NCBI GenBank assembly: GCA_030603495.1
Contig: JAUVXR010000010.1
Coordinates: 1 to 64,000, forward strand
Reading direction: 5' to 3'
From: a bacterium
GTDB lineage: Bacteria > Armatimonadota > Zipacnadia > Zipacnadales > Zipacnadaceae
DNA: 64,000 bases
Part shown: positions 3,421 through 63,920 of the stretch, one piece after another
Layout of the letters: the number at the start of each line of letters is the position of its first letter
Numbering within the stretch: the first letter of the stretch is position 1
The notes under the pieces: model-generated
The model's database searches: none
What the model was told of the DNA's origin: nothing
The model's input: the letters and a program-made list of their open reading frames with translations, nothing else
Position numbers and translations under genes: made by a program

Positions 3421-3530
3421 TAACTTCACTCCTTCTAACTCTCGTTGGCACAAAGACAGCCAAGCTATCACGGCATACAGCTCGAGCAGGACTCCTCGCA
3501 GACAGTCGCAACTTACCCAAACACGACGCA

Positions 3531-3555
3531 CCCCTCTTGCTGCTGGGAAGAGGGG
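3531..3555 (-). promoter_or_regulatory. Hairpin in the str operon leader
   Basis: Perfect 8-bp inverted repeat with a 9-base loop, about 110 bases upstream of the rpsL start and inside the predicted transcript. No poly-U tail follows. Possible autoregulatory or antitermination structure; function unknown. Confidence 0.4.
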
Positions 3556-3728
3556 CACAAATAGTGCATACCACACATCCAAGAAGCTTCTGTTACCTCG
3601 ACGGAGGCTTTCTCTAAGCTTCAGCCCCTTTCGGTTTCACCGTTAACTTGCCAAACCCCGGCCGCCCCTCCAATGCCAGGCCTCGTGCCCTGTCCCCGCA
3701 ACTGCTCCGCCATTCCCACGATAAGTTG

Positions 3729-3757
3729 ATTATAGCCCCACACGCCTGACTTGTCAA
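3729..3757 (-). promoter_or_regulatory. Sigma-70-type promoter of the str operon
   Basis: On the minus strand a perfect TTGACA (-35, complement of 3752-3757) and a perfect TATAAT (-10, complement of 3729-3734) are separated by exactly 17 bases. It points at rpsL-rpsG-fusA-tuf, with a predicted transcription start near 3722. Confidence 0.9.
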
Positions 3758-3823
3758 GCGAAATCAGCAGTTTGTCGCCCCTTTTTTCCAGCCTATCCAG
3801 CAGTAGACGCCTACCAACTCCGC

Positions 3824-6800: not shown

Positions 6801-8494
6801 TCAGCATTAAAGGCCTGACAGACCAGTGGGTGAAGTTGAATTGCCTTGCCCTCTACCAGAACCGGCTCAAAGGCCTGGATGCCCAACCGGTGCAGCGTCG
6901 GCGCCCGATTAAGTAGTACGGGATGCCCCTGAATAACCTCGTCCAGCGCGTCCCAGACCTCCGGATGCATCCGGTCAATCATCCGTTTGGCCGTCTTGAT
7001 GTTGGTGGTATGCCCCTCATCAACCAGCCGATTCATCACAAATGGCTTGAACAGCTCCAAAGCCATCTGCCGCGGCAAGCCACACTGATGCAACTTCAGC
7101 TCGGGGCCGACGACGATAACCGAGCGCCCCGAATAGTCCACGCGTTTGCCCAGCAGATTTTTGCGGAACCGCCCTTCTTTGCCTTTGAGTTGGTCGCTCA
7201 GCGACTTGAGCGGCCGCCGATTCGTGCCGGTGACCGGACGGCGCCGTCGCCCATTATCTATCAGGGCATCTACTGCCTCCTGGAGTAGACGCCGCTCGTG
7301 ATTGACGATTGATTCGGGAGCATTGATCTCGATGATACGCCGCAGACGGTTGTTGCGGTTAATAACGCGGCGATACAAGTCGTTCAGATCAGAGGTGGCG
7401 AAGCGCCCACCATCCAGTTGCACCATCGGTCGCAGCTCTGGCGGCAGGACGGGAACGACATCCATAATCATCCACTCAGGACGGTTCTTGCAGTTGCGGA
7501 AGGCCTCGACGATCTTCAATCGCTTAACTGCGCGCGCCCGCCGGGCCCCACTACGTTCCTCGATCTCATTGCGCAGCTCGTGAGCGAGTTCATCCAGATC
7601 GATCTTGGCCAGAAGATCTCGGATGGCCTGCGCTCCCAATCCAGCCTCAAACAGCTTCTTGAACTCCTGGCCCAGACGCCGCGCGCAGATCTCTTCAATC
7701 TGGCGCAGCTTGCGATACTCGACCTCGGTAATCGCCTGCTTCGGCATAAGCTCGAACAACAGCTCCGCCGCCTCCTCCAGCTCTTGGATGCGCTCGGTTG
7801 CCAACCTCTGCTGCTCCTGGATTCGCTGCCCTAGCTCAGCCTCATCCATCTCTGCAGGCAGCGGCTTCTGGCTGAACCCGAAACCGAGCAAGCCCTCCGG
7901 TGCATCTTCCTCCTCGGCCTCTGCTACCTCCTCGCCGGCTGCACGTCTGAGGCAGTTCTCGTAGTGCTGACGCAGTCGCTCGAGGATCGCATCGCACGCC
8001 TCCCGTATCTCCTGCTTTTCCTCTTCCAGCGCCTCCCGGATCAGCTCGCGCTGCGTTTCGATGGTTTCACGCTCAGCGGCAATGACGATGTACGAGGCGA
8101 AGTAGACCACTTCCTGGAGCACCGGACTGGAAACATCCAGCAGCAGACTGATGGGGCTGGGCACCCCCTTCAAGTACCAGCTATGGCAAACTGGCGAGGC
8201 CAACTCGACGTGACCCATCCGCTCCCGGCGCACCTTCCGTCGCGTAACCTCGACCCCGCACCTGTCGCAGATAATCCCCTTGAACTTAACCTTCTTGTAC
8301 TTGCCGCAATGGCACTCCCAGTCCTTGGTCGGCCCAAATATCCGCTCACAGAACAGGCCATCGCGCTCGGGCCGGTAAGTTCGATAGTTGATCGTCTCGG
8401 GCTTCTTGACCTCGCCGTGTGACCACCGGCGGATGGCCTCAGGTGAAGCTAGTCCCACCGTAATGGCTGCAAAATCAGTGCTGGACTCGGCCAA
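3824..8494 (-). CDS. rpoC: RNA polymerase beta' subunit
   Basis: Catalytic subunit of RNA polymerase. The Mg-binding NADFDGD motif lies at residues 563-569 and the trigger-loop entry [10 protein letters not shown] near 1138-1147. The first zinc site is C61, C63, C76 and C79; the second is C992 with C1096, C1103 and C1106. At 1556 residues it is longer than the E. coli subunit (1407). Part of the excess is a charged, coiled-coil-like stretch around residues 140-310. A second extra piece is CxxC-x10-CxxC at 1010-1027, between the CGTSDG motif and the next conserved block, which resembles an additional zinc ribbon. The start is TTG at 8494, supported by GGAGG eight bases upstream. Follows rpoB by 88 bases. 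Confidence 0.97.
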
Positions 8495-11500: not shown

Positions 11501-12389
11501 CGTGAACCTCGTAGGGCACCGCCACTACCCGCACCTGTCGCCGGCCCATACTCTCTAGTTTCTTGGCTATAGTCTCACTGATATACCCATACGAGCCGAC
11601 CAGTACCCCGCCCTCACCGCTGGCTATCTGATCGAGTGAATAGTAGACGTCGTAGGCCTCGATGCCCGGCATCCCCCCGGCTTCGCGCTGCGCGAAGCTC
11701 TTCACCAGTGCCTTCACGTCGAGGTAATGATGCTCGCCGAAGTATTCCAGAATCTCCACATCAGTGCCGACCGCCGGGACCTCGGCGCCTTCTGCATCCT
11801 CAAACCAATCCAGTGCACGCAGCAGCGTCGTTACCGGAAACTTACGGGTCTGCCCGGTCTTTACGCTCATGACTCCGCTGCTAGCAGTGCTGATCTCCAC
11901 CCAGGCCCCTTCGGCAGGAATAATCTGCGCTGTATAGAGTACCTTACCTGCCGAATCAATGGTGTCGCGAAAATAGGCACCTGGAGAGCGCGACAGTTGA
12001 CTGATGACAACCCGCTCCGCCCCGTTGATCAAGAAGGTGCCTTGCGGCGTCATCTTGGGCAGTTCGCCCATGTACAACTCGCTCTCCTTGATCTCCCCCG
12101 TTTCCCGGTTAACCAGGCGCACTCGCGCGTGGATGGGCTGCTCGAAGGTGATGTCGGCCTCTCGGCACTCCTCCAGACTGCGTTTCGGCTCACCCAGCCA
12201 GTAGTCCAGGAACTCCAACGCCAGAACTCCGGTGTAGTCCTCAACGGGACTGAAATTGTGGAAAAGCTCGGCGAGGCCCTGCGCCACAAACCACCGGTAC
12301 GATTCAGTCTGGATCTCGATGAGGTCAGGCAACAACTCTGCATCTACGGGGTTTTGCTGTCGGGGCTCAAGCGGAATTACCTGCGCCAT
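8583..12389 (-). CDS. rpoB: RNA polymerase beta subunit
   Basis: Core RNA polymerase subunit of 1268 residues. The rifampicin pocket (453-481) keeps Q461, D464, H474 and S479, equivalent to E. coli Q513, D516, H526 and S531. Three pocket positions differ: G457, I466 and A470. [12 protein letters not shown] and [12 protein letters not shown] are intact. At residues 882-903 there is a four-cysteine segment (CKKC...CKRC) between the VFSR and LNPGVNQ blocks. E. coli carries its large lineage insertion at this same place, but here it is a compact zinc-ribbon-like module. The ATG at 12389 is preceded by GAGGAG. Transcribed with rpoC from the promoter at 12589-12617. Confidence 0.97.
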
Positions 12390-12446
12390 AGTATCGCTAG
12401 ACTCCTCGTCGGCCGGCCTCGGCCCTAGGGCGCCGGCACCCTAATA

Positions 12447-48684: not shown

Positions 48685-50331
48685 TCACCGACTATACTTC
48701 CTGACGATGCAGATCAAGAACAGCGACATCATCACGATCCCCAACACGGCCTCCAGGCCAGCCAGAGCGCGACCAATTCCTGGAGCTGGGGCCAGGTCAG
48801 CATAGCCCAGACTGGTAAAGGTTATCACACTGAAATAGAGCGCCGTCCAAAAGCTGTGCACAACGCCATTCGGGGTGGCGGCATCAACCTCGGTCCCAGC
48901 CTTCAGGTCAGCCACGCCAGCCCATGTATGGCAGCCAGCAAAGATCAAGATGAGAGCGAGAATCCACCCCACAATCCAACTGGGCCGCTCGCCATAGCCG
49001 CACAAGAGGTACATCGCCGCCCACATCGCCCGGTAGCCCATCAGCCACGCCCACACAGCAAACGGCACCGAGGCACCTGCGAGGGCGAACCACCACGGAT
49101 TCTCAGCCGGCACGCGAGCCATACCTAGAACGAGCGCCACTGCGACTGGGAAGAGTAGGAGAAGGACGCCGCAGCGGCCCCAGAAAGCAGCAAAGAAAGC
49201 CTGCTTCTGGTCTTGCACCATTTGGGCCCGCTTGCACTCCATCTCGCGGACGAAAAACTCTCCGGCGGTCTGATAATCTCCTGATTCCTGATAATTCAGC
49301 TTGAGCTGGCGGTATACTGCCTCGCATTCGCTGAAGCTCGGACGATTGTCCTCCTTCAGCCCATCGTGCAGCGCTTTGGCTTTCTCCCATTCTTGATCGC
49401 TGTAGGCACAGCGTTCGTCACGGATATGGTATTCGGTCCAGCGCATCTTGCGCAGACGCCACCACCGGCAGATTCCGCGCAGGCCGATCCAGCCACACCT
49501 CTGCCAGGGGAACCAGCGCCGCGTCACAGAAAACCCGAAGGTTGCGTGGGCGAGATTGGCTTCGGGAGCAATGGTCGCCGCCGCCAAGAGTGCTCCTTGT
49601 AGACGCGCATGTCGCAGCACCGGGATCTCTGTGATAGCAAGGTCCATGTCACGGTCAGTCTTCTGGCAGGGCACAATGATGGCGTGGCGTAAGTGAGCGT
49701 TGAATAGTCTTGCCCCGCCCAGCTTAGCGCCGTGCAGATTGGCGCCGCCCAAGTTGGCGCTGTGCAAGTCAATGTCCCCCATCTTGGCAAGTTGCAGCTT
49801 GGCGCGCCCAAGGTTTGCGCCTCGCAGTTTGGCACATCCCAGGTCGGCGCCCCGCAGGTCCGTAGCTCGCAGGGAAGCACGCTGCAGGTTGGCATCTCCC
49901 AGGTGAGCGCGCTGCAGGTTCGCACCGAAGAAGTCAGCGCCCTGCAGATTGGCATCTTGGAGGTAAGCGCTCTGCAGGTTCGCACCTCGCAGGTAAGCGC
50001 GCTGCAGGTTCCCATCTACCAGGTAAGCACCCTCCAAGTTGCCACGGAAGAGGTTAGCGCGCTGCAGGTAGGCGCCCCGCTCCACCACTTCCTCCAGCCG
50101 GGCCTTCAGGTCAAGATCGGTTTTTCGGTCTCGCTGGGAGTGGAAGTAGCACAGGCGCTCGTCGCGGCCAATATCGTCATCGGGCACGCACAGCCCGCAG
50201 CGCCGGTCCTGAACGCTTCTTCTCTCGTACTCGTAATCTTCCTCGAACTCATACTGGCAGCGCTGCTCTGGTGGCAAGTCATCCAGCTCCGGCCCGTGAT
50301 TGACCCAGTCTGGCTCGTTGGCGTTGCACAT
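48685..50331 (-). CDS. Pentapeptide-repeat potassium-channel-like membrane protein
   Basis: 548 residues from ATG 50331 (a GTG three codons earlier is possible). Order of parts: a Cys-rich acidic N-terminus with CGLC...RLCYFH that may bind zinc (about 25-65), then about 25 tandem A(N/D)LxxA pentapeptides (about 88-217) forming a right-handed beta-helix. A soluble helical region (about 300-375) follows. Three to four transmembrane helices come next (about 385-470), then a pore loop ITFTSLGYAD and a final helix. The filter differs from the canonical TVGYGD type (SLGYAD). Probably a two-pore-helix ion channel gated by its cytoplasmic domains. Such fusions exist in other bacteria; its ligand is unknown. 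Confidence 0.82.
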   Translation of the reverse strand: MCNANEPDWVNHGPELDDLPPEQRCQYEFEEDYEYERRSVQDRRCGLCVPDDDIGRDERLCYFHSQRDRKTDLDLKARLEEVVERGAYLQRANLFRGNLEGAYLVDGNLQRAYLRGANLQSAYLQDANLQGADFFGANLQRAHLGDANLQRASLRATDLRGADLGCAKLRGANLGRAKLQLAKMGDIDLHSANLGGANLHGAKLGGARLFNAHLRHAIIVPCQKTDRDMDLAITEIPVLRHARLQGALLAAATIAPEANLAHATFGFSVTRRWFPWQRCGWIGLRGICRWWRLRKMRWTEYHIRDERCAYSDQEWEKAKALHDGLKEDNRPSFSECEAVYRQLKLNYQESGDYQTAGEFFVREMECKRAQMVQDQKQAFFAAFWGRCGVLLLLFPVAVALVLGMARVPAENPWWFALAGASVPFAVWAWLMGYRAMWAAMYLLCGYGERPSWIVGWILALILIFAGCHTWAGVADLKAGTEVDAATPNGVVHSFWTALYFSVITFTSLGYADLAPAPGIGRALAGLEAVLGIVMMSLFLICIVRKYSR

Positions 50332-50451
50332 TGTTCTCACCCCAGGCCTATTTCGCTAGGGAGGGGTGGGAGTCCTGCGTGGGCGGGCGGCGGATAGAGG
50401 CAGACAACAGCAGACAGGAACAGAGAAAGGCAGAATGACGGCAGAAACGGC

Positions 50452-51065: not shown

Positions 51066-52436
51066 TTACAGATTGCCGCGGTGTAATTCAGCGGTGGTCT
51101 CGGGCATTTGCACGCCGATATAGTGATTCTGAAAGTGCGCCTGCGTCGTGGCGATTATGTCTCCTTTGGTAATCCCCTGGATTTCGGCGGCTATCTGGTC
51201 AAAGCTGGCCGGGCCACCGCCCAGCACCTCGATCTCCCCGAGATGTGCCGCCAGTGTCGTCGGCCCCAGCATAATCCGGGCATGGCCGTTGATCAGGTTC
51301 TGCTTGGCCCGGCCTAGCTCCTCGGGACGGATCGCCCCATCGCGCAGTGAGTTGAGGTGGCGCAGAAGGGCCTGGTGAGTCTCTTCGACGGCACCAGGAT
51401 CGCACTCGGCATAGATTGCCAGGTGAGGTTGCCGGCTCAGCGCCACCGGCAGCACCTTCACCGGCGTGCGCTGCGCCAGCAAGCGAAAGGGGAGGTTCAA
51501 CGCCAGGCTGTGCAGTAGTCCCCGGTCGCGCATCAGCCGCCCTTGTGCCCCACTCAGCACGTGATACAGGAGTTGACCGATTCGGAAGCCTTTGCCAGGA
51601 GGCGGTGATACGGGCACCCCCACTACCACCGTGGCCAGCCCGGTCAAGGGGTTACTGCCCGCCCGAACGCGGGAGTACTTATGTAGGACACGCTCCGGAG
51701 ACGGGGCAACTATACCGTGCGCCAGCGAACCCAGTGCACCCTCCGCCATAGCGACAATCTCCTCGCGCGACGCCGGGGCTACCACAACCACTACAGCGTT
51801 CGCCGCCTGGAAATAGTTCTGGGCAAAGGTCCTGACCTGCTCGGTGGTGATCGCCGCTGTTGACTCCGACGTACCGAAAACCGGCCGGGCCGCAGCAACA
51901 TCGCCCAACATCGCTTCGCGGAAGAGGTAATAGGTTTGCTCAGCCACGCGCCTGGGCATATCCTCATATTCCTTGGCGAGACGCTGCCGGGACAGCTCGA
52001 GAAGCTCGGGCTGAATCTGCGGGGAGAATATGCCCTCGCTTACCAGCTCCATCAGGGAGCGGAGCTCTCGGGAGGGACAGCTCGCCCGCATCCGGAGGTA
52101 GTCCCACTCGACTCCCCACGCCGGCGCCCGGCCACTGCGAATGGCCTGCTGCAATGGCGCAAACCTTGCGTCGGTTTCCAGTAGCTCACGAACACGGGCA
52201 CTGTTGTGCTCGTGGATGAGCGCCCGGATGCCGGGGGGCTCGTCCAGGTCAGCTCCTACCCGGAATCCCACAAAGACTCCGGCCACATCTGAGGCATAGT
52301 GCGGGCAAGCGACCACCGTCAAGCCGTTGCCGAGGACGGTCCGGGTGACCGGCGCAGCACCATCAGACGAGGCCGTTACCACGCCCACCAGAGCGGTAAG
52401 CACCAGCACAGGAAAAAGCCGAGTGACATGTCTCAT
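51066..52436 (-). CDS. M16-family peptidase homologue, catalytic motif absent
   Basis: 456 residues with a signal peptide (LVLTALVGVVTASS). M16 fold segments are visible: VTRTVLGNGLTVVACPHYASDVAGVFVGFRVGADLDEPPGIRALIHEH. The HxxEH zinc motif is missing, with IHEHNS in its place. It is therefore likely the non-catalytic half of a heterodimer with the active partner encoded immediately upstream. Its ATG overlaps that gene's stop by four bases. Confidence 0.82.
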   Translation of the reverse strand: MRHVTRLFPVLVLTALVGVVTASSDGAAPVTRTVLGNGLTVVACPHYASDVAGVFVGFRVGADLDEPPGIRALIHEHNSARVRELLETDARFAPLQQAIRSGRAPAWGVEWDYLRMRASCPSRELRSLMELVSEGIFSPQIQPELLELSRQRLAKEYEDMPRRVAEQTYYLFREAMLGDVAAARPVFGTSESTAAITTEQVRTFAQNYFQAANAVVVVVAPASREEIVAMAEGALGSLAHGIVAPSPERVLHKYSRVRAGSNPLTGLATVVVGVPVSPPPGKGFRIGQLLYHVLSGAQGRLMRDRGLLHSLALNLPFRLLAQRTPVKVLPVALSRQPHLAIYAECDPGAVEETHQALLRHLNSLRDGAIRPEELGRAKQNLINGHARIMLGPTTLAAHLGEIEVLGGGPASFDQIAAEIQGITKGDIIATTQAHFQNHYIGVQMPETTAELHRGNL

Positions 52437-53773
52437 GGCAGCCGGGCCTCCCAGCGGTCAGCGGCAGCCGGCTTGGGACGGATAACGACCAAGTTGTAGT
52501 TGTCCGGGCGCAGGTATTTCGCCGCTGTCTGTTGGACATCTTCGGCAGTTACCTCATTGATGAGGTCAATGTAGTCAATCGCGAACTGGTAGTCGTAGAT
52601 CGCTTCATAAAAGGAGAGCGATTCAACCTGGTCAGTATACGCCTCGTTGCTGAAGGCATACTGGCCGTAGATACGCTGCTTGGTCGCCGCGAGCAGCTCG
52701 TCACTGACGGGCGCGGCGCTAAGTTGCTCGATATTCCCGAGGATGGCCGCGCGCAGGTCCACCTCATAGGCTGGCTCAGTGACAGCAGTAATGCTAAACA
52801 GCCCGGGCCAGCGTTGGGTCAGATAGCTAACGACCACGCCCGCCAGCAGCGGCTTGTCGCCCTCGGGTGCTTCCACCATCTGGTTGAGCCAATCGTCCAT
52901 AATCATATAGATGAGGTCCATCGCACAGACCTCGCGCTGGTTGGCAATGCCCGGCGCATGCCAAGCGAACTGAAGCAGAGTTATTGATCTCTCCAACTGC
53001 TCGATGCGCGTGCGGACCTCGGTCTGGGGCGGCTCGGCGGGGACCTGCGGCACCACCTTATCCCCCGGAGCATACCCACCGAAGCTCTCCTCAGCAAGCT
53101 CGAAAAAGGCCTCAGCATCCACATCACCGACCACGACGACAGCGGCGTTGTGGAGCCGATAGAATTGATTGTAGAAGGCGCGCACTGCGTGGACGTCGAG
53201 ATCCTCGAGCTGAGTCGGAGAGCCCGGGATTGGCCGCCCGTAGGGATGCTCAGTATAGGCTAGCTGCCAGGTGAAGATGTTAGTCAGCTCAACGGTCGAG
53301 CTCAACCGATCCGCCATCTCCCGCAGGATGATACGCTTCTGCTGAGCCACCGCTTCAGCGGTGAATTTGGCTGCGAAAATGCTCTGGGCCAGGAGGGGAA
53401 TCATCTGATCGAAGTATTCAGAGGAGCTCGCCAGAGTCACCTGGGTGAAGTCGCGCGTGACCACAGCATTGACGTAGCCGCCCATATCCTCGATCTGTGG
53501 ACCGAACGCGTCTGTGCTCCTGTGTTCTTCGAAGAGTAGATGCTCGACCAGATGAGCCACACCGCTGTTGTGCTCAGTCTCATAACCCGAACCTGCCCCG
53601 ATGACCAAGCCCAGGGCAACAACGGGCCATTGGCGCTCCGACTTGACTATCACCCGCAGTCCATTGTCCAGGGTCTTGGCCTGAATATGAGCGGGATCCA
53701 GGATAGGCGCGGCGACGGCACTCGCAGTCAACACGACTACTAGCAGGAGTGTCCAGGCAATTCGATGACTCAT
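52433..53773 (-). CDS. M16-family zinc peptidase (active partner)
   Basis: 446 residues with a signal peptide (WTLLLVVVLTASAVAA). Zinc ligands H74 and H78 in HLVEHLLFEEH with catalytic E77 (HxxEH); E152 in ILREMADR is the third ligand at the expected spacing. The HPYGRPIPGS segment is also typical. Processing peptidase of the periplasm or cell surface, probably working as a dimer with the next product. ATG at 53773, 13 bases after the Gfo/Idh stop. Confidence 0.9.
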   Translation of the reverse strand: MSHRIAWTLLLVVVLTASAVAAPILDPAHIQAKTLDNGLRVIVKSERQWPVVALGLVIGAGSGYETEHNSGVAHLVEHLLFEEHRSTDAFGPQIEDMGGYVNAVVTRDFTQVTLASSSEYFDQMIPLLAQSIFAAKFTAEAVAQQKRIILREMADRLSSTVELTNIFTWQLAYTEHPYGRPIPGSPTQLEDLDVHAVRAFYNQFYRLHNAAVVVVGDVDAEAFFELAEESFGGYAPGDKVVPQVPAEPPQTEVRTRIEQLERSITLLQFAWHAPGIANQREVCAMDLIYMIMDDWLNQMVEAPEGDKPLLAGVVVSYLTQRWPGLFSITAVTEPAYEVDLRAAILGNIEQLSAAPVSDELLAATKQRIYGQYAFSNEAYTDQVESLSFYEAIYDYQFAIDYIDLINEVTAEDVQQTAAKYLRPDNYNLVVIRPKPAAADRWEARLP

Positions 53774-54852: not shown

Positions 54853-55704
54853 CTATGGTCTCTCACCTTGCCCCTCCGGGCACGGCAGCACTTCTCCCTG
54901 CCAACATGCCGCCAGTTCGGCGGTGGTGAGCAGGTCAATCTGGTTGTGCTGAAGGATCAGCGCCATCTCGTCGGTCGCGCCGGTATCCACAAAGCGGTGG
55001 TAGGCTGCCGGAATAAGCTCGCCGGGAATGTCGCCGCCCCGCCGCCGCCCACACAGATAGCTCTCCAGAGTAACCAGGCGATGGTCGGGCACTGGCAGGT
55101 CCCGTTGGCGGCGGGCTACCCAGAGTATGTCCAGATGCTGCTGGGGCTGCACAGTCCATTCCATGCGATGATAGCGACTGCGATCACGCAGGAAGGGTAC
55201 GTCAAAGGCCCGTCCATTGAAGCTGACCAGGATTTTCGCCTCAGCTAGCATCTCCAGAGCTGCTGCCAGAGTTGCGGCCTCCTCCGCATAGTCCCGGGCG
55301 AGCAGTTGATGGAAATGGGGGCCGTCGGCTCCGACGTGTAGCACGCCAACCAAGAACAGCGGTGTCGAGGAGAGACCCGTCGTCTCAATGTCCAGGAATG
55401 CCACTTCGTGACGGGCCTCTACCGCGAAGGCCTCGTTCTGCACCAGTTCCTCGAATAGATCCACCGCGAGCTGCTCTGCCCATTGGCCAATGTCAGCGGG
55501 CATAAGCCGAATGCTGAGATAACTGCCGCGGCTGTGCTCCACCACCAGTCCGGGCGGCATTGTCGGGTTCGGGGCTATCACCGTGTCTGCCGGGCTGCCA
55601 GCGGGCGGAGCCTGCTCGGTAGGCTGCACCGCATCGCCGCCCGCATACTGGCCTCCAGCACGCAAAGCAGATAGTCGTCGCCGAGTGTGACGAGGTAGTA
55701 GCAT
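54853..55704 (-). CDS. RNase H-fold 3'-5' exonuclease (YprB-like)
   Basis: 283 residues from ATG 55704. A DEDD-type exonuclease core: FLDIETTGLS (exo I), LVSFNGRAFDVPFLRDR (exo II) and HNQIDLLTTAELAA near the end (exo III region). The segment SSTPLFLVGVLHV and the long N-terminal extension are like B. subtilis YprB. The frame is open 43 codons further, but that would enter the gene upstream. Ribosome binding site weak. Substrate, DNA or RNA, unknown. Confidence 0.82.
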   Translation of the reverse strand: MLLPRHTRRRLSALRAGGQYAGGDAVQPTEQAPPAGSPADTVIAPNPTMPPGLVVEHSRGSYLSIRLMPADIGQWAEQLAVDLFEELVQNEAFAVEARHEVAFLDIETTGLSSTPLFLVGVLHVGADGPHFHQLLARDYAEEAATLAAALEMLAEAKILVSFNGRAFDVPFLRDRSRYHRMEWTVQPQQHLDILWVARRQRDLPVPDHRLVTLESYLCGRRRGGDIPGELIPAAYHRFVDTGATDEMALILQHNQIDLLTTAELAACWQGEVLPCPEGQGERP

Positions 55705-55714
55705 TATTTCCGGC

Positions 55715-57490
55715 TCAATCGGCCAGCGATGAGGCCAACCAGCGCAGGCTCTCCCCTTCCAGACTGGCGAGCTCCTGGGCGGCTTCAACTGCGTTGCGCC
55801 ACGGCTCTGTGCGGTCCGCGGGGAGGGCCTCACCGCCCTCTTCCCCAGCCTCCGTTGGCATCTGCGCCAGCGACTCTCCCAGGCTTTCCCAGCGGTTAGC
55901 GATCTGCTGATAACGGTCGCTGGCCCCCAGGAGGACGGTCTGATCCCTGCCCCGAGATTCGGCCGCTAGGTCGGCAAAAAAGCGGGCAGCAGCCCGACGC
56001 GTGCTGATGATCAGGGGGACTGCCTGTGTAGCCCAGGACTTGATCTTCTCCCCCTGCTCGAGATCGTCGTCTGCGGCGGCCTGGGCCAACACCTCCAGCA
56101 AGGCCCAATGAGCGGCAGCCCCCGCCGGTTGCCGCATGAGCTCTGTCTGGTCCCAGGCCAGGCTAGCCTGGATGACCACCGACTTCATATTGGCGACCAG
56201 ATCAGGTTGAGTCTGCTGCTGGGTAAGAGCAAACTGGAATCCCGCGATACTACCTTGCGGCCACAAGACGGGTACTTCGCTGGCTTCCCACACCCGGAGG
56301 AATTCATCCGCCGATAGCTTCACAGCCTGCTGGGCACCCGGGCTGAGTAGATGGAGCTCCTTCTCTGCCGGCCGATGGCCAGTAATCAGGCACCATCGGG
56401 CGTTAGGCCGACCGTATATGACCAGCAAAGGCCGGTTGTTCATCAGGCAGCCAGTGGCGGTGTCGAGCACGCTCGCACCGCCAGCAGAAGTTCGCAGGTC
56501 ATAAGCGAAACCCATCTGGTCACTAATCGCTGCCGCGGGATTGCGGTAGAAGGTCTGGACCAGACTGGGGCGCTCGGCGGCAAAGGTAAAGGTGAAGGGC
56601 AGGCCGGAGCTGACGACGAGCTGGTCCATGGAAACTTCCGTCCCAGCCTGACGAAGCAAGGAGCGCAGGGCCGCTAGCAACTCCATTGCCGGCGCACCGG
56701 GAAATTCGTCAATTGGCGGGACGTTCTCCAGCACACGGGCCTGCTCGCGCAGTCGTTCCAATCGTGCCTTCTCGGTCTCCGTTTTTTCGTCGTAGTAGGC
56801 CCAGCCAACGGCCTGCCGGGCGGCAGCCGCCGCCTCAGTATCCGGGTATTGTTCCACTACTTTTACGTACAGGGCCAGGCTCTCCTCGCGATCCTCAGTG
56901 GTTTTGCGCATGATATTAGCCTGCATCAGCAGCGCTTGTGCGGCAATGCTGGGACGATCGCTGAACTCTTCGCTGACCCGCGCATACCACTCCTGGGCAT
57001 CAGCCAGCCGCTCGGCCTCCATGTAAGCACGCGCCACCTCCAGATGCACCCGGCCCCGCAGCTCTTGATACGTCGGGAAGCGCTGGTCAATCTCTCGACA
57101 CGTCGCTGCTGCCATGTCTGGGTCGCGTAGGTGCCGCCGCTGTAGATACACGATCCAGAATAGCGCGTCATCCACGTAGTTGCTACCCCGATACTCGTCC
57201 GCGAGGCGGCGGTAGTATCTAAGGGCCCCCGAGGGATTATCAAGCTCTTCGCGGTACAGATAGGCGAGCTTGTACAAGGCGTCGTCGGCCAGCGGATCGC
57301 CGGCTGCCTCCTGCACGATCCGCGCATACTCCCGCGCCGCCAGCTCGTACTCACCCTGCCTGAAGAAAGCCTCGGCGCGGCGATACAATCGCTGGGACTT
57401 GGTGGAACAGCCAGCCACCACCAGCACCACGGCGAGCACTGCTATCGCCCAGACCGGCCCTACAGACTTAGCAGAACCTGAGGGTCTCAC
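55715..57490 (-). CDS. TPR lipoprotein with a C39-like domain
   Basis: 591 residues. Lipoprotein signal ending VVLVVAGC (C28). Residues about 30-250 are tandem TPR-like repeats similar to BamD/YbgF-type proteins. A segment at about 280-430 (MELLAALRSLLRQAG, then CLMNNRPLLVIYGRPNARWCLITGHRPAEKELHLLSPG) resembles a C39/BtrH-like papain-fold domain but lacks an N-terminal nucleophile cysteine, so it may only bind peptides. The C-terminal 150 residues are helical. GTG start overlaps the previous stop (GTGA). Confidence 0.7.
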   Translation of the reverse strand: MRPSGSAKSVGPVWAIAVLAVVLVVAGCSTKSQRLYRRAEAFFRQGEYELAAREYARIVQEAAGDPLADDALYKLAYLYREELDNPSGALRYYRRLADEYRGSNYVDDALFWIVYLQRRHLRDPDMAAATCREIDQRFPTYQELRGRVHLEVARAYMEAERLADAQEWYARVSEEFSDRPSIAAQALLMQANIMRKTTEDREESLALYVKVVEQYPDTEAAAAARQAVGWAYYDEKTETEKARLERLREQARVLENVPPIDEFPGAPAMELLAALRSLLRQAGTEVSMDQLVVSSGLPFTFTFAAERPSLVQTFYRNPAAAISDQMGFAYDLRTSAGGASVLDTATGCLMNNRPLLVIYGRPNARWCLITGHRPAEKELHLLSPGAQQAVKLSADEFLRVWEASEVPVLWPQGSIAGFQFALTQQQTQPDLVANMKSVVIQASLAWDQTELMRQPAGAAAHWALLEVLAQAAADDDLEQGEKIKSWATQAVPLIISTRRAAARFFADLAAESRGRDQTVLLGASDRYQQIANRWESLGESLAQMPTEAGEEGGEALPADRTEPWRNAVEAAQELASLEGESLRWLASSLAD

Positions 57491-58326
57491 AGATTTACGG
57501 CCTCTTCCAGCACCAGCATTACTGACATTAGTTTCTCCCGCCTTGGGCCAGCCGCGTCTTCCGCCGCGTGGCGCACTATTTCGATCAGCCCTTGAGCTGC
57601 GATCCGCTCCTTGACGAACCGTAGATGGCCCGTCTCGTACAGACTCCTGGCGTTGGTAATCTCCTCCAAGACCAGCCCGAGGCGCTGGTAGGCCTCTGCT
57701 TGAACGGCTTGCGCGTCTTCCGGATCAAGCAAGCTCAGATAAGCCTCCTGTACCGCCGCCGGCAATTCCATCTGCGCAATACGCTGCTGAAGCATCTCGA
57801 ACTGCAACTGAGGGCTGCGGCGGTTCAGTGCTCCGTGGTACAGTGCCGAACTGATACCGACCAGTACGGCCACCGCTACTATACTCAGAGCCAAAGCCAC
57901 CCGCCGCGCGCCGCGCCGGCGCCCCGCCGCCCCGGCGAGAACCGGGGACATGCGATCGCCCGCCGCAACCAGGTATTCCACAAGGTCCGGCGGCGCCGCC
58001 GAGAGTTCTTCCTGCTCTCGACGCGAGGCGATGCCAGCCATAGCCTGACGCACCTGCTGCGGATCGGCGATTCTTGCCATTACGCGTCCCAGCACAGATT
58101 CCGCCTCTGTAGGCAGGTCGCGATCGAAGCGCCACCGGCCCAGTGACGCCAGTAGACGCCGCCACGTCTCGATCACCGCCGCTCGGGCCAACACTTCATT
58201 GTCCAGCGCGGTCAACGCGAGCGTGTACAACTCGTCGGCCAGTTGATATGCCACGGCGCGCAGTGCGTCAGCATCACCAGCGCGGCAGCGGCGCAGTATC
58301 TTGTCCTGAACTCCGTTCTCGCTCAT
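57487..58326 (-). CDS. Membrane protein with sigma-region-2-like N-terminus
   Basis: 279 residues from ATG 58326 (GAGGAG 10 bases upstream; the open frame runs 41 codons further). Residues 1-75, with ILRRCRAGDADALRAVAYQLADELYTLALTALD and a following VLARAAVIETWRRL, resemble region 2 of ECF sigma factors. No region 4 follows. Instead there is a linker, a single transmembrane helix (VALALSIVAVAVLVGISSALY) and a helical extracytoplasmic part. A membrane-tethered sigma-like scaffold or anti-sigma-type protein is possible; the resemblance is weak. Stop overlaps the TPR lipoprotein start. Confidence 0.6.
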   Translation of the reverse strand: MSENGVQDKILRRCRAGDADALRAVAYQLADELYTLALTALDNEVLARAAVIETWRRLLASLGRWRFDRDLPTEAESVLGRVMARIADPQQVRQAMAGIASRREQEELSAAPPDLVEYLVAAGDRMSPVLAGAAGRRRGARRVALALSIVAVAVLVGISSALYHGALNRRSPQLQFEMLQQRIAQMELPAAVQEAYLSLLDPEDAQAVQAEAYQRLGLVLEEITNARSLYETGHLRFVKERIAAQGLIEIVRHAAEDAAGPRREKLMSVMLVLEEAVNL

Positions 58327-58330
58327 GAAC

Positions 58331-58987
58331 CTACGGCTCCTCGCCGCCGAACAACTCGTCACTAAGCCCAGTATTGATCTCGTAGTCCGTGAAGGTAACT
58401 GTAACTGTGCCCGGACCCGCCTGGCCCAGTATACCCCCGCTAATCTCACACTTGACTTCGGCAGGCATCCAGAACCTATCGTTGACCTTCACGTACTTCC
58501 AGTATACCGTCAACAGGCGGTTCATGCCAGCCCATACCTCACTGCGCGTCAGCGTCCAGCGTTCGCCCGTGACCCAGAGCAGGAGCCGATGACGTCTGTC
58601 CATGTTCGCCGGCATGAACTTCAGACAGTAGACTGGCCGGGGGCCATCCCGCCGGACTCCAACTGTTATCACTTGCCCCGCTTCGGCCATATGCTTCTTG
58701 AGATTCCCCAGCAGCAGGACATCCCGCGGCAGGACCACCAGGCTGGTTGATTCGATCTTCACTTTGTCGGGCCGTTTAACGTAGACGGTGAAACTGCGCT
58801 CGGGCATGTCGAAACCAGGCAGATCCGTCACGACCCGGGTTTGTACGGTGAAGTCCTCGACCTCGTCGTGCAGCTCCAGTGCCCGCTCCAGTATCTCAGC
58901 AGGCGGAGGATCCGCAGCAAACGCCGCCGGTCCTATGACCAGGCACGCACCAATGACGACCTGAGCAATTCCGCTCACCCACCGCAT
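58331..58987 (-). CDS. LolA-like periplasmic protein
   Basis: 218 residues from ATG 58987, giving a clean signal peptide (MRWVSGIAQVVIGACLVIGPAAFA); an ATG at 59002 is an alternative. The mature part has a LolA/LppX/DUF4292-like half-barrel pattern, DFTVQTRVVTDLPGFDMPERSFTVYVKRPDKVKIES, suited to holding a lipid chain. It lies between an ABC-2 permease and the sigma-like protein, so it may receive lipid or lipoprotein from the transporter. Confidence 0.72.
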   Translation of the reverse strand: MRWVSGIAQVVIGACLVIGPAAFAADPPPAEILERALELHDEVEDFTVQTRVVTDLPGFDMPERSFTVYVKRPDKVKIESTSLVVLPRDVLLLGNLKKHMAEAGQVITVGVRRDGPRPVYCLKFMPANMDRRHRLLLWVTGERWTLTRSEVWAGMNRLLTVYWKYVKVNDRFWMPAEVKCEISGGILGQAGPGTVTVTFTDYEINTGLSDELFGGEEP

Positions 58988-58988
58988 T

Positions 58989-59837
58989 CTAACACAGCAC
59001 ATCCTTCCGCTGAAATATGATCATGGCCAGGACCGCCGGCACCACGATATAGCCCGCCAGGTAGCTGAGCGAGCTGCGCACTGCTACCCAGTCAACAACC
59101 CCGGCGAAAGCTTCGCGGTAGACCGAAATGTGTTCGGTTACCAGGTACGGCTGCAACCAGACGAAATAAGGCATCAGTTGCAGCGCCTGAAATACGAGCA
59201 GTATGGCTACGGTCACCCCCGCAGCCGTCAGCGGGTTGTCGCAGACAACCGACAGTAGTAGCGCCAGCGAGGCAATCGCCATCATCGCTACCGCCCCCAG
59301 CCCATAGCCCAGGGCTAGCCGGACTAGCGCCTGCGGCTCAGCCAAAACGCCCAACGACGAGCCTTGAAAGTCCATGACGACCAGGTCGCCGCGCCCGAAG
59401 ACGAGATACCCAACCAGGGCACCGAATAGGCCCAGGAATAGCACCAGACTGGCGGCGTGCAGCCAGCCGGCAAACAGTTTCCCGGCCAGCAGGCGCGTGC
59501 GCGGCACCGGCCGGGTTATCACTGTACGCAAGGTCCCGGCACGCTTCTCTCCCGCTACCAGGCCGCTGGCCACGGTGGCGACCAGCAAGGGAATGAGCAA
59601 GTACAAGGCCAGGGGGAGCGTGAGCAACACAAAGGGAAGAAATGGCCCGGTGAGCAGCTTGCCGCCGACAATGAACTGGTCCCCGACGGCTCGCCGGAGA
59701 TCGTCGGGCGGCCCGTGACGCCAGATTCCCCAGACGAATAGCCCGACTAACACCGCCAGCACCACGTAGCCGACATAGGTCCCGCGCTGGGCGAATAGCT
59801 TGCGCAGCTCAATTGCTATCGTCGTGCGCAGTCTCAT
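58989..59837 (-). CDS. ABC-2-type transporter permease
   Basis: 282 residues with six predicted transmembrane helices. The first segment IAIELRKLFAQRGTYVGYVVLAVLVGLFVWG and the cytosolic loop VASGLVAGEKRAGTLRTVITRPVPRTRLLAGKLFAGW are typical of ABC-2 permeases. The start overlaps the ATPase gene by 29 bases. Probably exports a lipid, polysaccharide or antibiotic-like compound; cargo unknown. Confidence 0.88.
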   Translation of the reverse strand: MRLRTTIAIELRKLFAQRGTYVGYVVLAVLVGLFVWGIWRHGPPDDLRRAVGDQFIVGGKLLTGPFLPFVLLTLPLALYLLIPLLVATVASGLVAGEKRAGTLRTVITRPVPRTRLLAGKLFAGWLHAASLVLFLGLFGALVGYLVFGRGDLVVMDFQGSSLGVLAEPQALVRLALGYGLGAVAMMAIASLALLLSVVCDNPLTAAGVTVAILLVFQALQLMPYFVWLQPYLVTEHISVYREAFAGVVDWVAVRSSLSYLAGYIVVPAVLAMIIFQRKDVLC

Positions 59838-60747
59838 TATCCTCCGTCAGCCGCATATACAGTTCCTCAAGGGTCTCGCGATAGGGTATCAGCCCAAAGA
59901 CGCGCAGGTCTTCCGACACCAGCATCTTGTTGATGTCGGCTACCGCATCCGGCGCGCAGTAAAGCTCGACCGTCTTGGCTTTGGCCTCTACCCGCTCGGC
60001 GCCATGGTAACCCGACAGCAGCCGCCCCGCCAGGTGGGGGTTGTTGGTGTAGATCTCCACGCGGATCTGCTCGGCCCCTAGTAGCTCCTCCACCGGCCCG
60101 TCGGCTACTACCTGGCCGCTGACGATGACCGCCACGTGCGTGCAAAGCTGCTCGACCTCGTAGAGCAGGTGACTGGACAAGAAGATGGTCACACCCCGCT
60201 TCTCACTCAGACGCTGCAGCAGCTCTCGCACCTCCACCAGCCCGCGCGGGTCCAGACCCGAGGCTGGCTCGTCGAGGATGAGCAGCTCGGGCTCCGGCAG
60301 CAGCGCTTGGGCCAGGTACAGCCGCCGGCGCATGCCGTGCGAATAGGTGCCGACCTTGTCGTGCTGCCGGCTACTGAGGCCGACGAGCTCCAGAGCTTCG
60401 GAGATAGCCTGCGCCGAGGTGCCGCCGGACAGGGCCGCGAGCAGCTTGAGGTTCTTCCGACCGGACAGGTACTCGTAAAGCGCCGGCTCCTCGACCACCG
60501 CGCCGACCACTGGGCCGCCGCCCCGCCGCAGTGCGCTGACCGGTGCCCCGAACAACCGCGCCCGGCCCCGGGTCGGCCGCACCAGGCCGGTGAGCACGCG
60601 GATAGCCGTGCTCTTGCCGGCGCCGTTAGGCCCGAGCAGCCCGTAGACCTGGCCGCGCTCGACGCGCAGGTCCACCTCGCGCAGCGCCCACGTCCGCCCG
60701 TAGCGCTTGCTGAGTCCTTCGGTTTCGATAATAGCGTCGCCGCTCAA
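59809..60747 (-). CDS. ABC transporter ATP-binding protein
   Basis: 312 residues. Walker A GLLGPNGAGKST, signature YSHGMRRRLYLAQAL (degenerate LSGGQ), Walker B LLILDEPASGLDP, H-loop FLSSHLLYEVE. CcmA/NatA-type partner of the downstream permease. The C-terminal 90 residues are the regulatory domain common in this group. TTG start at 60747 with GGAG nine bases upstream. First gene of the ten-gene run. Confidence 0.93.
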   Translation of the reverse strand: MSGDAIIETEGLSKRYGRTWALREVDLRVERGQVYGLLGPNGAGKSTAIRVLTGLVRPTRGRARLFGAPVSALRRGGGPVVGAVVEEPALYEYLSGRKNLKLLAALSGGTSAQAISEALELVGLSSRQHDKVGTYSHGMRRRLYLAQALLPEPELLILDEPASGLDPRGLVEVRELLQRLSEKRGVTIFLSSHLLYEVEQLCTHVAVIVSGQVVADGPVEELLGAEQIRVEIYTNNPHLAGRLLSGYHGAERVEAKAKTVELYCAPDAVADINKMLVSEDLRVFGLIPYRETLEELYMRLTEDNETAHDDSN

Positions 60748-60918
60748 CTTTGGCGTCTCCGGTGTCTAATGAAGTAAGGATATGATACCACAATCCAAGC
60801 CAGTACGTCCATGATAGCGCACCGGGAGGCAGGGCAGGTCTGCTTCTCACTTACGGCGAAGGTATTTCTAAGAGGACTGTAGGTTGACTTTTGACGGCGA
60901 AGGTTGGAGAGCAAGAAT

Positions 60919-62754
60919 ATGTCAGTTGTGATGGAGTGGCTCAAGATATGGGATGCATTGATCGTTGGCCTTCTCGCTATAGCAGTCATGATAGTACTGC
61001 ACCTGTTGCGACGGACGAGGGTGCCCGAGGTTCTTCGTGAAGAAGGGGCGCTAACTCGAGCGGCAATCGCCAAGTTCGCGGATGGTCTGGCGCAGCACCC
61101 CGAGAAGATGACGTCGACCCTTCCTGAACGGTCGGCTTTGCCCCCGGTCATCGCCGAGGTGGCGGATAGCGCATTGACCAGTCTCACCCAGAGTGCCCAG
61201 ATGATTGCAGGCGGGGACCTAGAGGCCGCCGACCAGAGCACCACTGAAGTCATGGGGGAGCTTGAGGAGACCTTCGAGACCTGGGTTGTCGAGGCGGGCG
61301 ACGAGCCAGGGGACGACATCAGGGATGTCATCACTGGGTTGCTAGGAGGTGCTTATCTGCAACGGGGGACAATTGCCTTCGAGCGGGAAGACTACGAGAC
61401 TGCGGTGGACATGTATAAAAGGGCCTACGGTTATGCCCAGGCCGGCCAAAATGCGCCAAACATGGCCCAGACGCTTCACCAAATCGGCGTCGCTTACGGG
61501 TTTGCGGGCAACCACGAGAAAGCGGAGACGTTCTTCCGCCGGGCTGCACACATCCAGCCCACTGCTCAGGCCTACAACAACCTGGGCGTGGCGCTCGCAG
61601 GACAAGGCGATATCGAAGCAGCTATCGAGGAGTATCGCGAAGCCCTGCGCCTCAATCCCGACTACGCCGAGGCCCACTACAACCTGGGCGTAGCACTGAG
61701 CCAGCAGGGCGAAATCGAAGAGGCCATCGCTGAGTACCGCAAAGCCTTGCGGATTAATCCTGACTCCGCCGAGGCCCACTGTAACCTGGGCGAGGCGCTG
61801 GGCCAGCAGGGCAAGACCGATGAGGCAATTGCCGAGTATCGCGAAGCCCTGCGTATCAACCCTGACTATGCCGATGTCCACAACAATCTGGGCGTGGCGC
61901 TGCGCCAGCAGGGCAAGACCGACGAGACCATCGCCGCGTTTCGCCAGGCAATTGCGCTTAACCCCAACTACGTCGAGGCGCACAGCAGCTTGGGTAACTT
62001 CCTAACAGAATGCGGCAAGATCCAAGAGGCTATCCTTGAGCACCGGGAAGCGCTGCGTATCAATCCTGACGACGCGGATGCCCACTATAGCCTAGGGCTT
62101 ACGTTATGGCAGCACGGTGATATTGAAGACGCAATCACCGAATACCGTGAAGCGCTACAACTGGATCCCAACCACAGCAAGGCGCACAACAACTTGGGCG
62201 CAGCACTATTGCAGCAAGGGAACCTCAAAGAGGCTATCGGGGCGTTTCGTGCGGCATTGCGCATAGATCCTGACTGGGCCGACGTCCGCACAAACCTCAG
62301 AGTTGCCCTCGTAGACCAGGGCAATCTCCTCGCAGAAGAGGGGGATACTAAGGCAGCTATTGAGGCGTATCGGGAAGCCTTGCGCATCAGTCCCGACTTC
62401 GCCGTGGCGCACTATAACTTGGGCACGGTGCTGGACCGAGAGGGCAAGACCGACGAGGCCATTGCTGAGTATCGAAAGGCCATTATGCTCAACCCTGACT
62501 ATTCCGAGGCCCATAACAATCTCGGCAATCGGCTAAGAGAGCAGGGCAATATCGACGAGGCCGTAGCTGAATATCGGAAAGCCTTGCGCATTACTCCCGA
62601 CGACGGCCACACCCATTGGAATCTGGCGGTGGCATTGTGCGGACAGGAACAGTTCGCCGAAGCCAAGGTTGAGGCCGACACGGCGTTGCGACTAGACCCT
62701 AGTAACGAGCAGGCCCAGGGGATGATTGAAGAGCTGACGGAGAAGGGCTATTGA
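60919..62754 (+). CDS. Membrane-anchored protein with about 12 TPR repeats
   Basis: 611 residues from ATG 60919 (GGAGAG seven bases upstream; a TTG at 60904 is in frame). One N-terminal transmembrane helix (WDALIVGLLAIAVMIVLHLL), a spacer with acidic/coiled character, then about a dozen near-identical 34-residue TPRs of the pattern YNNLGVALAxQGDIEAAIxEYREALRLNPDYAEAH from about residue 205 to the end. The 102-base DNA periodicity indicates recent tandem expansion. A scaffold for protein-protein contacts, facing the cytoplasm. It probably begins a plus-strand group with the HtrA-like protease. Confidence 0.82.
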   Translation: MSVVMEWLKIWDALIVGLLAIAVMIVLHLLRRTRVPEVLREEGALTRAAIAKFADGLAQHPEKMTSTLPERSALPPVIAEVADSALTSLTQSAQMIAGGDLEAADQSTTEVMGELEETFETWVVEAGDEPGDDIRDVITGLLGGAYLQRGTIAFEREDYETAVDMYKRAYGYAQAGQNAPNMAQTLHQIGVAYGFAGNHEKAETFFRRAAHIQPTAQAYNNLGVALAGQGDIEAAIEEYREALRLNPDYAEAHYNLGVALSQQGEIEEAIAEYRKALRINPDSAEAHCNLGEALGQQGKTDEAIAEYREALRINPDYADVHNNLGVALRQQGKTDETIAAFRQAIALNPNYVEAHSSLGNFLTECGKIQEAILEHREALRINPDDADAHYSLGLTLWQHGDIEDAITEYREALQLDPNHSKAHNNLGAALLQQGNLKEAIGAFRAALRIDPDWADVRTNLRVALVDQGNLLAEEGDTKAAIEAYREALRISPDFAVAHYNLGTVLDREGKTDEAIAEYRKAIMLNPDYSEAHNNLGNRLREQGNIDEAVAEYRKALRITPDDGHTHWNLAVALCGQEQFAEAKVEADTALRLDPSNEQAQGMIEELTEKGY

Positions 62755-62789: not shown

Positions 62790-63920
62790 ATGCTTAGTAA
62801 GGGGCAGTTGAGTCGCTACCAGTCAGTGCTGCTGGCGCTGATGCTGCTCATTTTACTGCCCTGGGCCAGTTGGGGGCAGATGATCAGCCGGGAGCAGGCG
62901 ATGCTGGCCGCAAGGCAACTCAGTGCCGCCTTCGCCATGGTGGCCAAGCAAGTCAAGCCCGCCGTGGTGAATATCTCTACCACTACCGTAATACCCGGGC
63001 GGCAGTCGCCGTTCTCGTCCGTGTTTCCGGAGTTTGGCTGGCTCTTCCGTGTGCCCGAGCGCGAGAAGACCAGCCTGGGCTCGGGCTTCCTGCTCTCGCC
63101 CAGTGGCCACGTCGTGACGAACCACCACGTCATCCAGGGCGCGCAGCAGATCAAGGTGAAACTCGCCGACGGACGGGAGTTCACCGCCCAGCTCAAGGCC
63201 ACTGATGCCGTGACCGACCTGGCGGTGATTAAGGTGCCCGCGCAGGGTCTCCCCTACCTTACGTGGGGCAACTCGGATCTGCTTCAGGTAGGCGAGTGGG
63301 TACTGGCCATCGGCTCGCCGCTGGGGCTGAGCCAGACGGTTACCGCGGGAATCGTCAGCGCCACGGGGCGCAGCGGGCTGGGACTGACCAGCTACGAAGA
63401 TTTCATCCAGACCGACGCTGCCGTCAACCCGGGCAACAGCGGCGGGCCGCTGGTCAACCTGGAGGGGAAGGTCGTGGGCATCAATACGGCTATTGCCTCA
63501 AGGAGCGGCGGGAGTGAGGGGATCAGCTTTGCCGTGCCCAGCAATATCGCCCAACCCGTCTGTCGCCAGCTCATCGCGCAGGGCAGCGTCACCCGGGGAT
63601 GGCTGGGTATTATTCCCCGGGATCTCACCGCCCAGACCATCCAGCGGTTCGCCCTGAGCATAGACGAGGGGGTACTGGTCTATCAACTGTACCGCAATAG
63701 CCCAGCCTTCGAGGCCAGCATTGCCCCGGGCGAGGTGTTGACCGCCTGGAATGGCCAGCCGCTCAGCGACAGCAATGCTCTGGCTAAACTGGTAGCTAAC
63801 AGCCCGCCCAACACACTGGTGCAGGTTACCATCTGGTCCAACGGCGAAACGCGGACCGTGCCCATGAGACTGGGGCGGCGGCCGCAACCACGGGAGGGTA
63901 GAAGCATAGACGGCATATGA
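62790..63920 (+). CDS. htrA: HtrA/DegP-like trypsin-fold serine protease
   Basis: 376 residues. Signal peptide or anchor (VLLALMLLILLPWASWG), then a trypsin-like domain with catalytic triad H113 (TNHHVI), D143 (TDLAVIK) and S217 (AVNPGNSGGPL), and a single C-terminal PDZ domain (about 260-365; RGWLGIIPRDL, ILVYQLYRNSPAFEASIAPGEVLTAWNGQPL). Envelope protein quality-control or processing protease. ATG with AGGAGG upstream; the stop overlaps the next start by four bases. Confidence 0.92.
   Translation: MLSKGQLSRYQSVLLALMLLILLPWASWGQMISREQAMLAARQLSAAFAMVAKQVKPAVVNISTTTVIPGRQSPFSSVFPEFGWLFRVPEREKTSLGSGFLLSPSGHVVTNHHVIQGAQQIKVKLADGREFTAQLKATDAVTDLAVIKVPAQGLPYLTWGNSDLLQVGEWVLAIGSPLGLSQTVTAGIVSATGRSGLGLTSYEDFIQTDAAVNPGNSGGPLVNLEGKVVGINTAIASRSGGSEGISFAVPSNIAQPVCRQLIAQGSVTRGWLGIIPRDLTAQTIQRFALSIDEGVLVYQLYRNSPAFEASIAPGEVLTAWNGQPLSDSNALAKLVANSPPNTLVQVTIWSNGETRTVPMRLGRRPQPREGRSIDGI

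Follow-up and report, generated by a model that had tools for sequence, protein, structure and literature searches.

The window, i.e., the whole 64,000 nt stretch that was analysed, is from an Armatimonadota bacterium of the family Zipacnadaceae and carries a five-gene module at positions 55715–60747. The genes encode the ATPase and permease of an ABC-2 type ATP-binding cassette (ABC) transporter, a LolA-like periplasmic carrier, a one-helix membrane protein termed SigTM here, and a lipoprotein with tetratricopeptide repeats (TPR). SigTM joins a degenerate region 2 of an extracytoplasmic function (ECF) sigma factor to a transmembrane (TM) and periplasmic part that resembles an anti-sigma factor. 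An earlier note on this DNA, made from the letters alone, described five tightly packed genes and an envelope set of this content. Both descriptions are confirmed: all five open reading frames (ORFs) are on the minus strand, densely arranged and with the spacing it gave. Its gene count omits a sixth gene that is usually adjacent, and it overlooked the apparent sigma/anti-sigma chimera nature of SigTM. The features are as follows, with predicted local distance difference test scores given as pLDDT.

59809–60747, minus strand: ABC transporter ATPase of the DrrA/GldA-like type with a TTG start (PF00005, E 1.4e-27, and motifs)
58989–59837, minus strand: ABC-2 type permease, 282 aa (ABC2_membrane_2, PF12679, E 1.2e-14; PF12730, E 1.8e-9; several hydrophobic segments)
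58331–59002, minus strand: LolA-like periplasmic carrier with a signal peptide-like N-terminus; possible start at 58987 (PF17131 and PDB profile matches)
57487–58326, minus strand: SigTM, one-helix membrane protein with a degenerate ECF sigma region 2 and an anti-sigma-like TM/periplasmic domain
58027–58305, minus strand: cytosolic sigma-region-2-like domain of SigTM, residues ~8–100 (SigR profile match, fold matches, hhalign)
57844–57900, minus strand: single TM helix of SigTM, residues 143–161 (hydrophobicity 2.51 over 19 residues; the model helix 113–170 is continuous)
57490–57822, minus strand: periplasmic helical domain of SigTM, residues 169–279 (alignment; model block with pLDDT 74–96)
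55715–57490, minus strand: TPR lipoprotein with lipobox Cys28, TPR at ~30–245 and a BtrH/CtaG/AziU3-like part at 255–591
55718–56728, minus strand: BtrH-like C-terminal domain of the TPR lipoprotein (BtrH_N family matches; catalytic residues apparently lost)
54853–55833, minus strand: RNase_H_2 (PF13482) nuclease gene, the frequent sixth gene (E 7.3e-33; start codon uncertain)

The ATPase and permease ORFs overlap by 29 bases. The permease and LolA-like ORFs overlap by 14 bases, or are separated by a 1-base gap if Met6 (58987) is the start. The gap between the LolA-like gene and SigTM is 4 bases, with the mechanical SigTM ORF beginning further upstream at 58449, and the ORFs of SigTM and the TPR lipoprotein overlap by 4 bases. 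Rfam and tRNA scans of the window gave no match.

The order ATPase–permease–LolA–SigTM–TPR is found on the same strand in 24 genomes besides the window, all from the same order of Armatimonadota. Because 24 other genomes share both order and strand, the arrangement is far beyond chance. It is kept across families f1–f5 at low sequence identity (~30%), and the genes overlap or almost touch in many genomes. Of the 24 loci with all five genes, 16 have RNase_H_2 directly after the TPR gene. The nearest named relatives are metagenome-assembled genomes labelled Candidatus Zipacnadia, candidate division WS1 or Armatimonadetes; the class Zipacnadia has been described (PMC10290634). Genomes of 43 out of 61 relatives were matched by the LolA-like protein as query, and 24 loci were found with the TPR family alignment as query. 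A contig scan with the single LolA-like protein as query gave no match.

The two halves of the module also occur apart. Among the sampled loci, 14 from across the phylum have only the triad ATPase–permease–LolA, including those of all four family f6 genomes and of genomes of other classes; in two of the 14 (G001 and G011), SigTM–TPR is present on another contig. SigTM–TPR without an adjoining triad is found in several genomes (genus g3, G007). Full-length SigTM matches in a profile search (E < 1e-30) are limited to the order. Outside it, the profile matches ordinary sigma factors, mostly over the first 100 columns. These neighbourhood readings therefore show a module that is real at the order level and that consists of two sub-modules able to live apart. 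The earlier note had named lack of conservation and separate partners for the genes as grounds against a module; the whole order is conserved, but it splits into the two sub-modules in some genomes. One genome (G012, loci L029/L118) has LolA–SigTM–TPR–RNase_H_2, but no ABC genes were found ahead of them in the locus, and the profile match to its LolA gene contains a stop codon.

The first ~100 residues of SigTM are an ECF sigma region 2 by both sequence and fold. The SigTM family profile matches region 2 of SigR in the PDB with an E of 3.5e-5, and seven more ECF sigma sequences fall below E 0.25. An hhalign comparison with an intact ECF sigma factor from locus L096 gives P 3.5e-5 over 97 columns. 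In the reverse direction, an ECF profile run on 10,316 ORFs recovers members of the SigTM family with E-values between 7.1e-7 and 8e-4. Only host-genome ECF sigmas, retrieved with a single ECF seed from L097, went into this profile, and its first round was used; the second-round profile may include SigTM members and was left out of the evidence. The AlphaFold2 model of SigTM is all-helical with a mean pLDDT of 91.5 and displays a cytosolic bundle, a long membrane-crossing helix and a periplasmic bundle. The cytosolic domain aligns by VIA-align to region 2 of AlgU, SigW and sigmaE with Z scores of 9.4–10, values that are no more than suggestive for helical proteins, so that the weight rests on the sequence result. 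The periplasmic domain has the motif LVLEE(I/V) twice. A kinship of this domain to copper-storage proteins (VIA Z ~9) was considered and rejected, as it reflects a common helical bundle without sequence support.

Region 2 of SigTM has degenerated where a sigma factor contacts DNA. A column comparison of 21 SigTM proteins with 11 ECF sigmas shows that the Trp position of region 2.3/2.4 is aromatic in all 11 ECF sigmas versus none of the SigTM proteins, and that Asn in the same region is present in 8/11 versus 0/21. The promoter-facing basic stretch of region 2.3/2.4 is replaced. In region 2.2, Gln is found in 8/11 ECF sigmas and in one of the 21 SigTM proteins. The invariant region 2.2 Asp (11/11 ECF sigmas), which belongs to the acidic motif through which sigma factors touch beta-prime, corresponds to Asp or Glu in 12/21 SigTM. 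Pfam and NCBIfam scans of SigTM found no sigma region 4 family. Region 2 is separated from the TM helix by ~40 residues, which the model folds into a short helix and the first part of the TM helix; both a full ECF sigma factor and a hidden region 4 were rejected, as these residues are too few. With sigma-4 absent and the promoter-contacting residues of region 2 lost from 21/21 proteins, there is no support for direct control of transcription by the sigma-like domain. The earlier note had suggested a system that signals to transcription; direct signalling by this part is unsupported.

The origin of the other half of SigTM is indicated by two sister families of the same class, f9 and f10, in which an intact ECF sigma gene, an anti-sigma gene and the gene for a homologue of the TPR/BtrH-like protein stand in this order. 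Such sets are found in L096 (G045), L097 (G043) and L114 (G044), and their anti-sigma factors are one-helix proteins with an HxxxCxxC zinc finger. Behind the set in L096 lie genes for an ABC ATPase and for a membrane protein with resemblance to an ABC-2 permease. When the SigTM periplasmic profile is run against the 10,316 ORFs, the top non-SigTM targets are the three syntenic anti-sigmas of f9/f10; a single unrelated ORF, recovered from two loci that overlap, ranks among them. Scores as high as the real ones were reached by 0, 4 and 4 of 3000 shuffled tails. The hhalign comparison of SigTM with the anti-sigma is end-to-end over the last 68 C-terminal columns (P 5e-4). No HxxxCxxC zinc finger is present in the aligned SigTM family. 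Since rank, synteny and collinearity combine, though each score is weak alone, descent of the TM/periplasmic half from the syntenic zinc-finger anti-sigmas is likely, i.e., supported but not proven. The simplest history would be that adjacent sigma and anti-sigma genes underwent fusion or deletion long ago, that sigma-4 and the zinc finger were lost in the process, and that SigTM now stands in place of the pair. No adjoining ECF/anti-sigma pair was found for TPR homologues in f14, f18, f33 and f37 (L094, L095, L098–L101), and the ECF link is therefore confined to f9 and f10. A literature search for a described Armatimonadetes sigma/anti-sigma fusion yielded nothing useful. Next to the ECF–anti-sigma–TPR genes in L097, a stand-alone protein of the BtrH-like type is encoded (11669–12442, minus strand); it contains a PFCC motif.

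The TPR lipoprotein consists of a TPR domain (TPR_6, E 3.6e-15) and a C-terminal domain, modelled with a mean pLDDT of 89.6. Its lipobox ends in GC, which is invariant in all 24 TPR family members. The TPR part matches CpoB (E 3.6e-10) and YfiO/BamD (E 5.8e-9). BtrH_N is detected in 14 of the 24 members, with a best E of 5.3e-6, and the C-terminal fold aligns to AziU3 with Z 20.0 over 298 residues and to CtaG and CcbD with Z 17–18. A PDB sequence search with the BtrH-like domain alone gave only helical-bundle noise, and a literature search on BtrH, AziU3 and CcbD yielded nothing useful. In active members of the BtrH/CtaG/AziU3 group of acyl or amide transfer enzymes, a His is believed to lie in the strand that precedes the conserved Gly; here this strand has Trp at position 366 in 24/24 proteins, and no Cys is among the residues listed for positions 258–273. 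The domain corresponds to the non-catalytic papain-like fold of the earlier note and is probably non-catalytic as judged from these columns. Family f18 has a TPR/BtrH homologue whose gene overlaps or directly adjoins that of a full-length ABC exporter of ~600 residues or more (L100, 7838–10905; L101, 5313–8326).

The ATPase has the expected motifs: Walker A GPNGAGKST, the signature, Walker B LLILDEPASGLD and the H-loop SSH. It scores best with DrrA-type exporters, yet below the cut-off. The permease is of the ABC-2 type, with no FtsX family match in the Pfam scan. For the window protein by itself, the match to LolA is weak (PF17131 LolA_like, E 0.067), but the assignment of the family is clear, as PF17131 is detected in 31/32 members with a best E of 3.2e-12. 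Profile matches in the PDB include 4z48 (E 3.2e-4) and the LolA-type 3bk5 (E 0.0039). MucB_RseB matches seven of the 32 members with a best E of 1.6e-6, weaker than LolA_like. The host genome has one copy by the LolA-like family profile. No LolA protein was found in it with PF03548 and PF17131 at E 0.001, a search of limited sensitivity in that the window's own copy also misses this threshold.

Genes on both sides of the module were also annotated. Divergent from it are a TPR-rich membrane protein (60904–62754, plus strand) and an HtrA/DegP-type protease (62790–63920, plus strand). The latter was considered as a conserved DegS-like partner and rejected, since among the compared loci it is present only in the window and in G001 (L041). 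Downstream are two adjoining M16-type peptidase genes (51066–53773, minus strand), also found beside the module in several relatives of genera g1 and g3, and a pentapeptide-repeat protein gene (48685–50340, minus strand) with a potassium channel-like C-terminal stretch.

The proposed interpretation is an envelope carrier operon of two joined sub-modules, with SigTM as a repurposed sigma/anti-sigma adaptor; an even chance is assigned to this reading. In the first sub-module, the ABC-2 transporter would take a hydrophobic cargo, lipid-like or lipidated, across the inner membrane or out of it and pass it on to the periplasmic LolA-like carrier. The 'lipid or lipopeptide' of the earlier note may be such a cargo. 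Most simply, the ABC-2 pair and the LolA-like protein would be the wider-spread core, an exporter and carrier for hydrophobic cargo that is Lol-like but has an ABC-2 permease. In the second sub-module, the lipid-anchored TPR/BtrH-like protein may serve SigTM as a scaffold or docking partner in the periplasm. SigTM would stem from an ECF sigma/zinc-finger anti-sigma pair by joining of sigma region 2 to the anti-sigma TM and periplasmic part. Its present role would most likely be that of a transmembrane adaptor or sensor: by means of a sigma-2 fold that has ceased to read promoters, it would link the proteins of the periplasm to a partner in the cytosol. A more specific version is put forward tentatively and is on balance doubtful: a sigma/anti-sigma pair may have collapsed into an adaptor of a Lol-like ABC-2–LolA route, in a Terrabacterial lineage from which Lol is presumed absent, so that sigma-2 would have left transcription to become a structural or signalling part.

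Several points weigh against the adaptor interpretation. The triad occurs alone in 14 loci and SigTM–TPR alone in several, and therefore the two halves need not be parts of a single machine. The E-values of the single anti-sigma links are weak (0.065 to 2.6 among the 10,316 ORFs). LolA-like folds also act as stress sensors, as in RseB, and the MucB_RseB matches in 7/32 members belong here. Because the region 2.2 acidic residue is kept in 12/21 SigTM proteins, contact with RNA polymerase may still take place. The likely loss of the catalytic Cys and His of the BtrH-like domain is judged from sequence columns (no Cys listed for 258–273, Trp at 366) and is supported but not proven.

A signalling role of SigTM is possible, chiefly as a PhyR-like sigma mimic and not by direct promoter recognition. 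Here sigma-2 would bind another anti-sigma factor, as in PhyR–NepR, and the state of the envelope, as perceived by the LolA-like and TPR proteins, would free or trap a real ECF sigma encoded elsewhere. The PhyR sigma-like domain has degenerate promoter and core contacts (PMC8103513, PMC8999054) and SigTM degenerates alike; PhyR chains are among the Foldseek matches, and Sigma70_r2 occurs at 11 places in the host genome. However, the operon has no anti-sigma partner, PhyR keeps both sigma domains where SigTM has only sigma-2, and SigTM is without a response-regulator or other switch domain. The mimic is considered an unlikely explanation.

The module may instead be a stress-sensing set, with the LolA-like protein as RseB, SigTM as RseA and the ABC-2 pair as effector, e.g., an antimicrobial exporter. 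SigTM has the topology of RseA, with a cytosolic N-terminus, one TM helix and a periplasmic C-terminus, and the MucB_RseB matches and the scores with DrrA-type exporters, though below cut-off, are in agreement. L116 (G042) has an ordinary ECF sigma gene with an RseB/LolA-like gene behind it. Against this, SigTM has no anti-sigma domain, LolA_like fits the carrier family better than RseB (3.2e-12 versus 1.6e-6), and the triad is without SigTM in many loci; therefore the LolA-like protein needs no RseA-like partner. A stress-sensing set is considered improbable. The L116 locus (4549–6984 and 3052–4524, minus strand), from the same class, has ECF sigma, RseB/LolA-like and FecR-like genes and represents an ordinary sigma/RseB-type set.

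It is very improbable that SigTM is a membrane-tethered active sigma factor, freed by intramembrane proteolysis like IutY (ECF243) to activate the operon or other genes. Fusions of sigma factors to membrane anti-sigma parts are known, one of them activated by proteolysis (PMC8999054), region 2 alone exists in the two-protein sigma SigO-RsoA (PMC8103513), and the divergent HtrA protease gene adjoins the operon in the window. SigTM has no sigma-4 and lacks the promoter-contacting residues in all 21 proteins, however, and the HtrA neighbour is confined to two of the compared loci. A still poorer prospect is that the neighbouring genes are functionally separate and are held together by chance or shared expression, as the separation of the halves in some genomes and the nuclease without evident link as the usual next gene might suggest, since the same order persists in f1–f5 at ~30% identity with overlapping or near-touching genes and an independent TPR–ABC neighbourhood is present in L096.

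If the adaptor interpretation is correct, SigTM represents a traceable conversion of a sigma/anti-sigma pair into a membrane component that does not read promoters, with intact ECF–anti-sigma–TPR sets remaining in sister families for comparison. This suggests a route by which a gene switch is reused in a cell-envelope machine. The triad would represent a candidate LolA-type carrier route that uses an ABC-2 transporter in Armatimonadota, of interest because diderm Terrabacteria are described as being without Lol. Both points can be tested with few genes.

The module has partial similarities to several known systems. The Armatimonadota are a branch of the diderm Terrabacteria. Diderm Terrabacteria, Halanaerobia excepted, are reported to lack the Lol pathway, and the origin of LolA has been called completely unclear (PMC11784454). 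The Lol pathway (LolCDE or LolDF with LolA) and the module both pair an ABC transporter with a LolA-fold periplasmic carrier. They differ in that the permease of the module is ABC-2 (PF12679) and was not identified as FtsX/LolC-E type, and in that the canonical LolA model PF03548 has no match in the host genome. RseA–RseB and MucA–MucB are similar in having a one-helix membrane protein beside a LolA/RseB-like periplasmic protein, but the cytosolic part of SigTM is a sigma-2 fold and not an anti-sigma domain, and the operon is without an ECF sigma gene.

The TPR lipoprotein shares the whole fold of its C-terminal domain with BtrH, CtaG, AziU3 and CcbD (Z 17–20 over 270–300 residues) but has this domain fused behind a lipid-anchored TPR, with the Cys and His positions apparently lost. 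Lipid-anchored periplasmic TPR are also found in BamD and CpoB; the lipoprotein differs from these by the extra 340-residue BtrH-like domain and is below the curated cut-offs for BamD and YbgF.

What SigTM has in common with PhyR is a degenerate sigma-like domain that cannot initiate transcription. The two differ in that PhyR is a response regulator and its sigma-like domain is fuller, whereas SigTM is membrane-bound and has sigma-2 only. IutY/ECF243, ECF48, ECF52 and ECF53 are described as sigma factors fused to a membrane anti-sigma part (PMC8999054). Like SigTM, they have an ECF sigma domain, a cytosolic N-terminus and a TM helix in one polypeptide, and the membrane part, from an anti-sigma factor in these fusions, probably has the same origin in SigTM; SigTM differs in being without sigma-4 and the zinc finger and in the loss of promoter-contacting residues. 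These sigma–anti-sigma fusions are the nearest precedent for SigTM.

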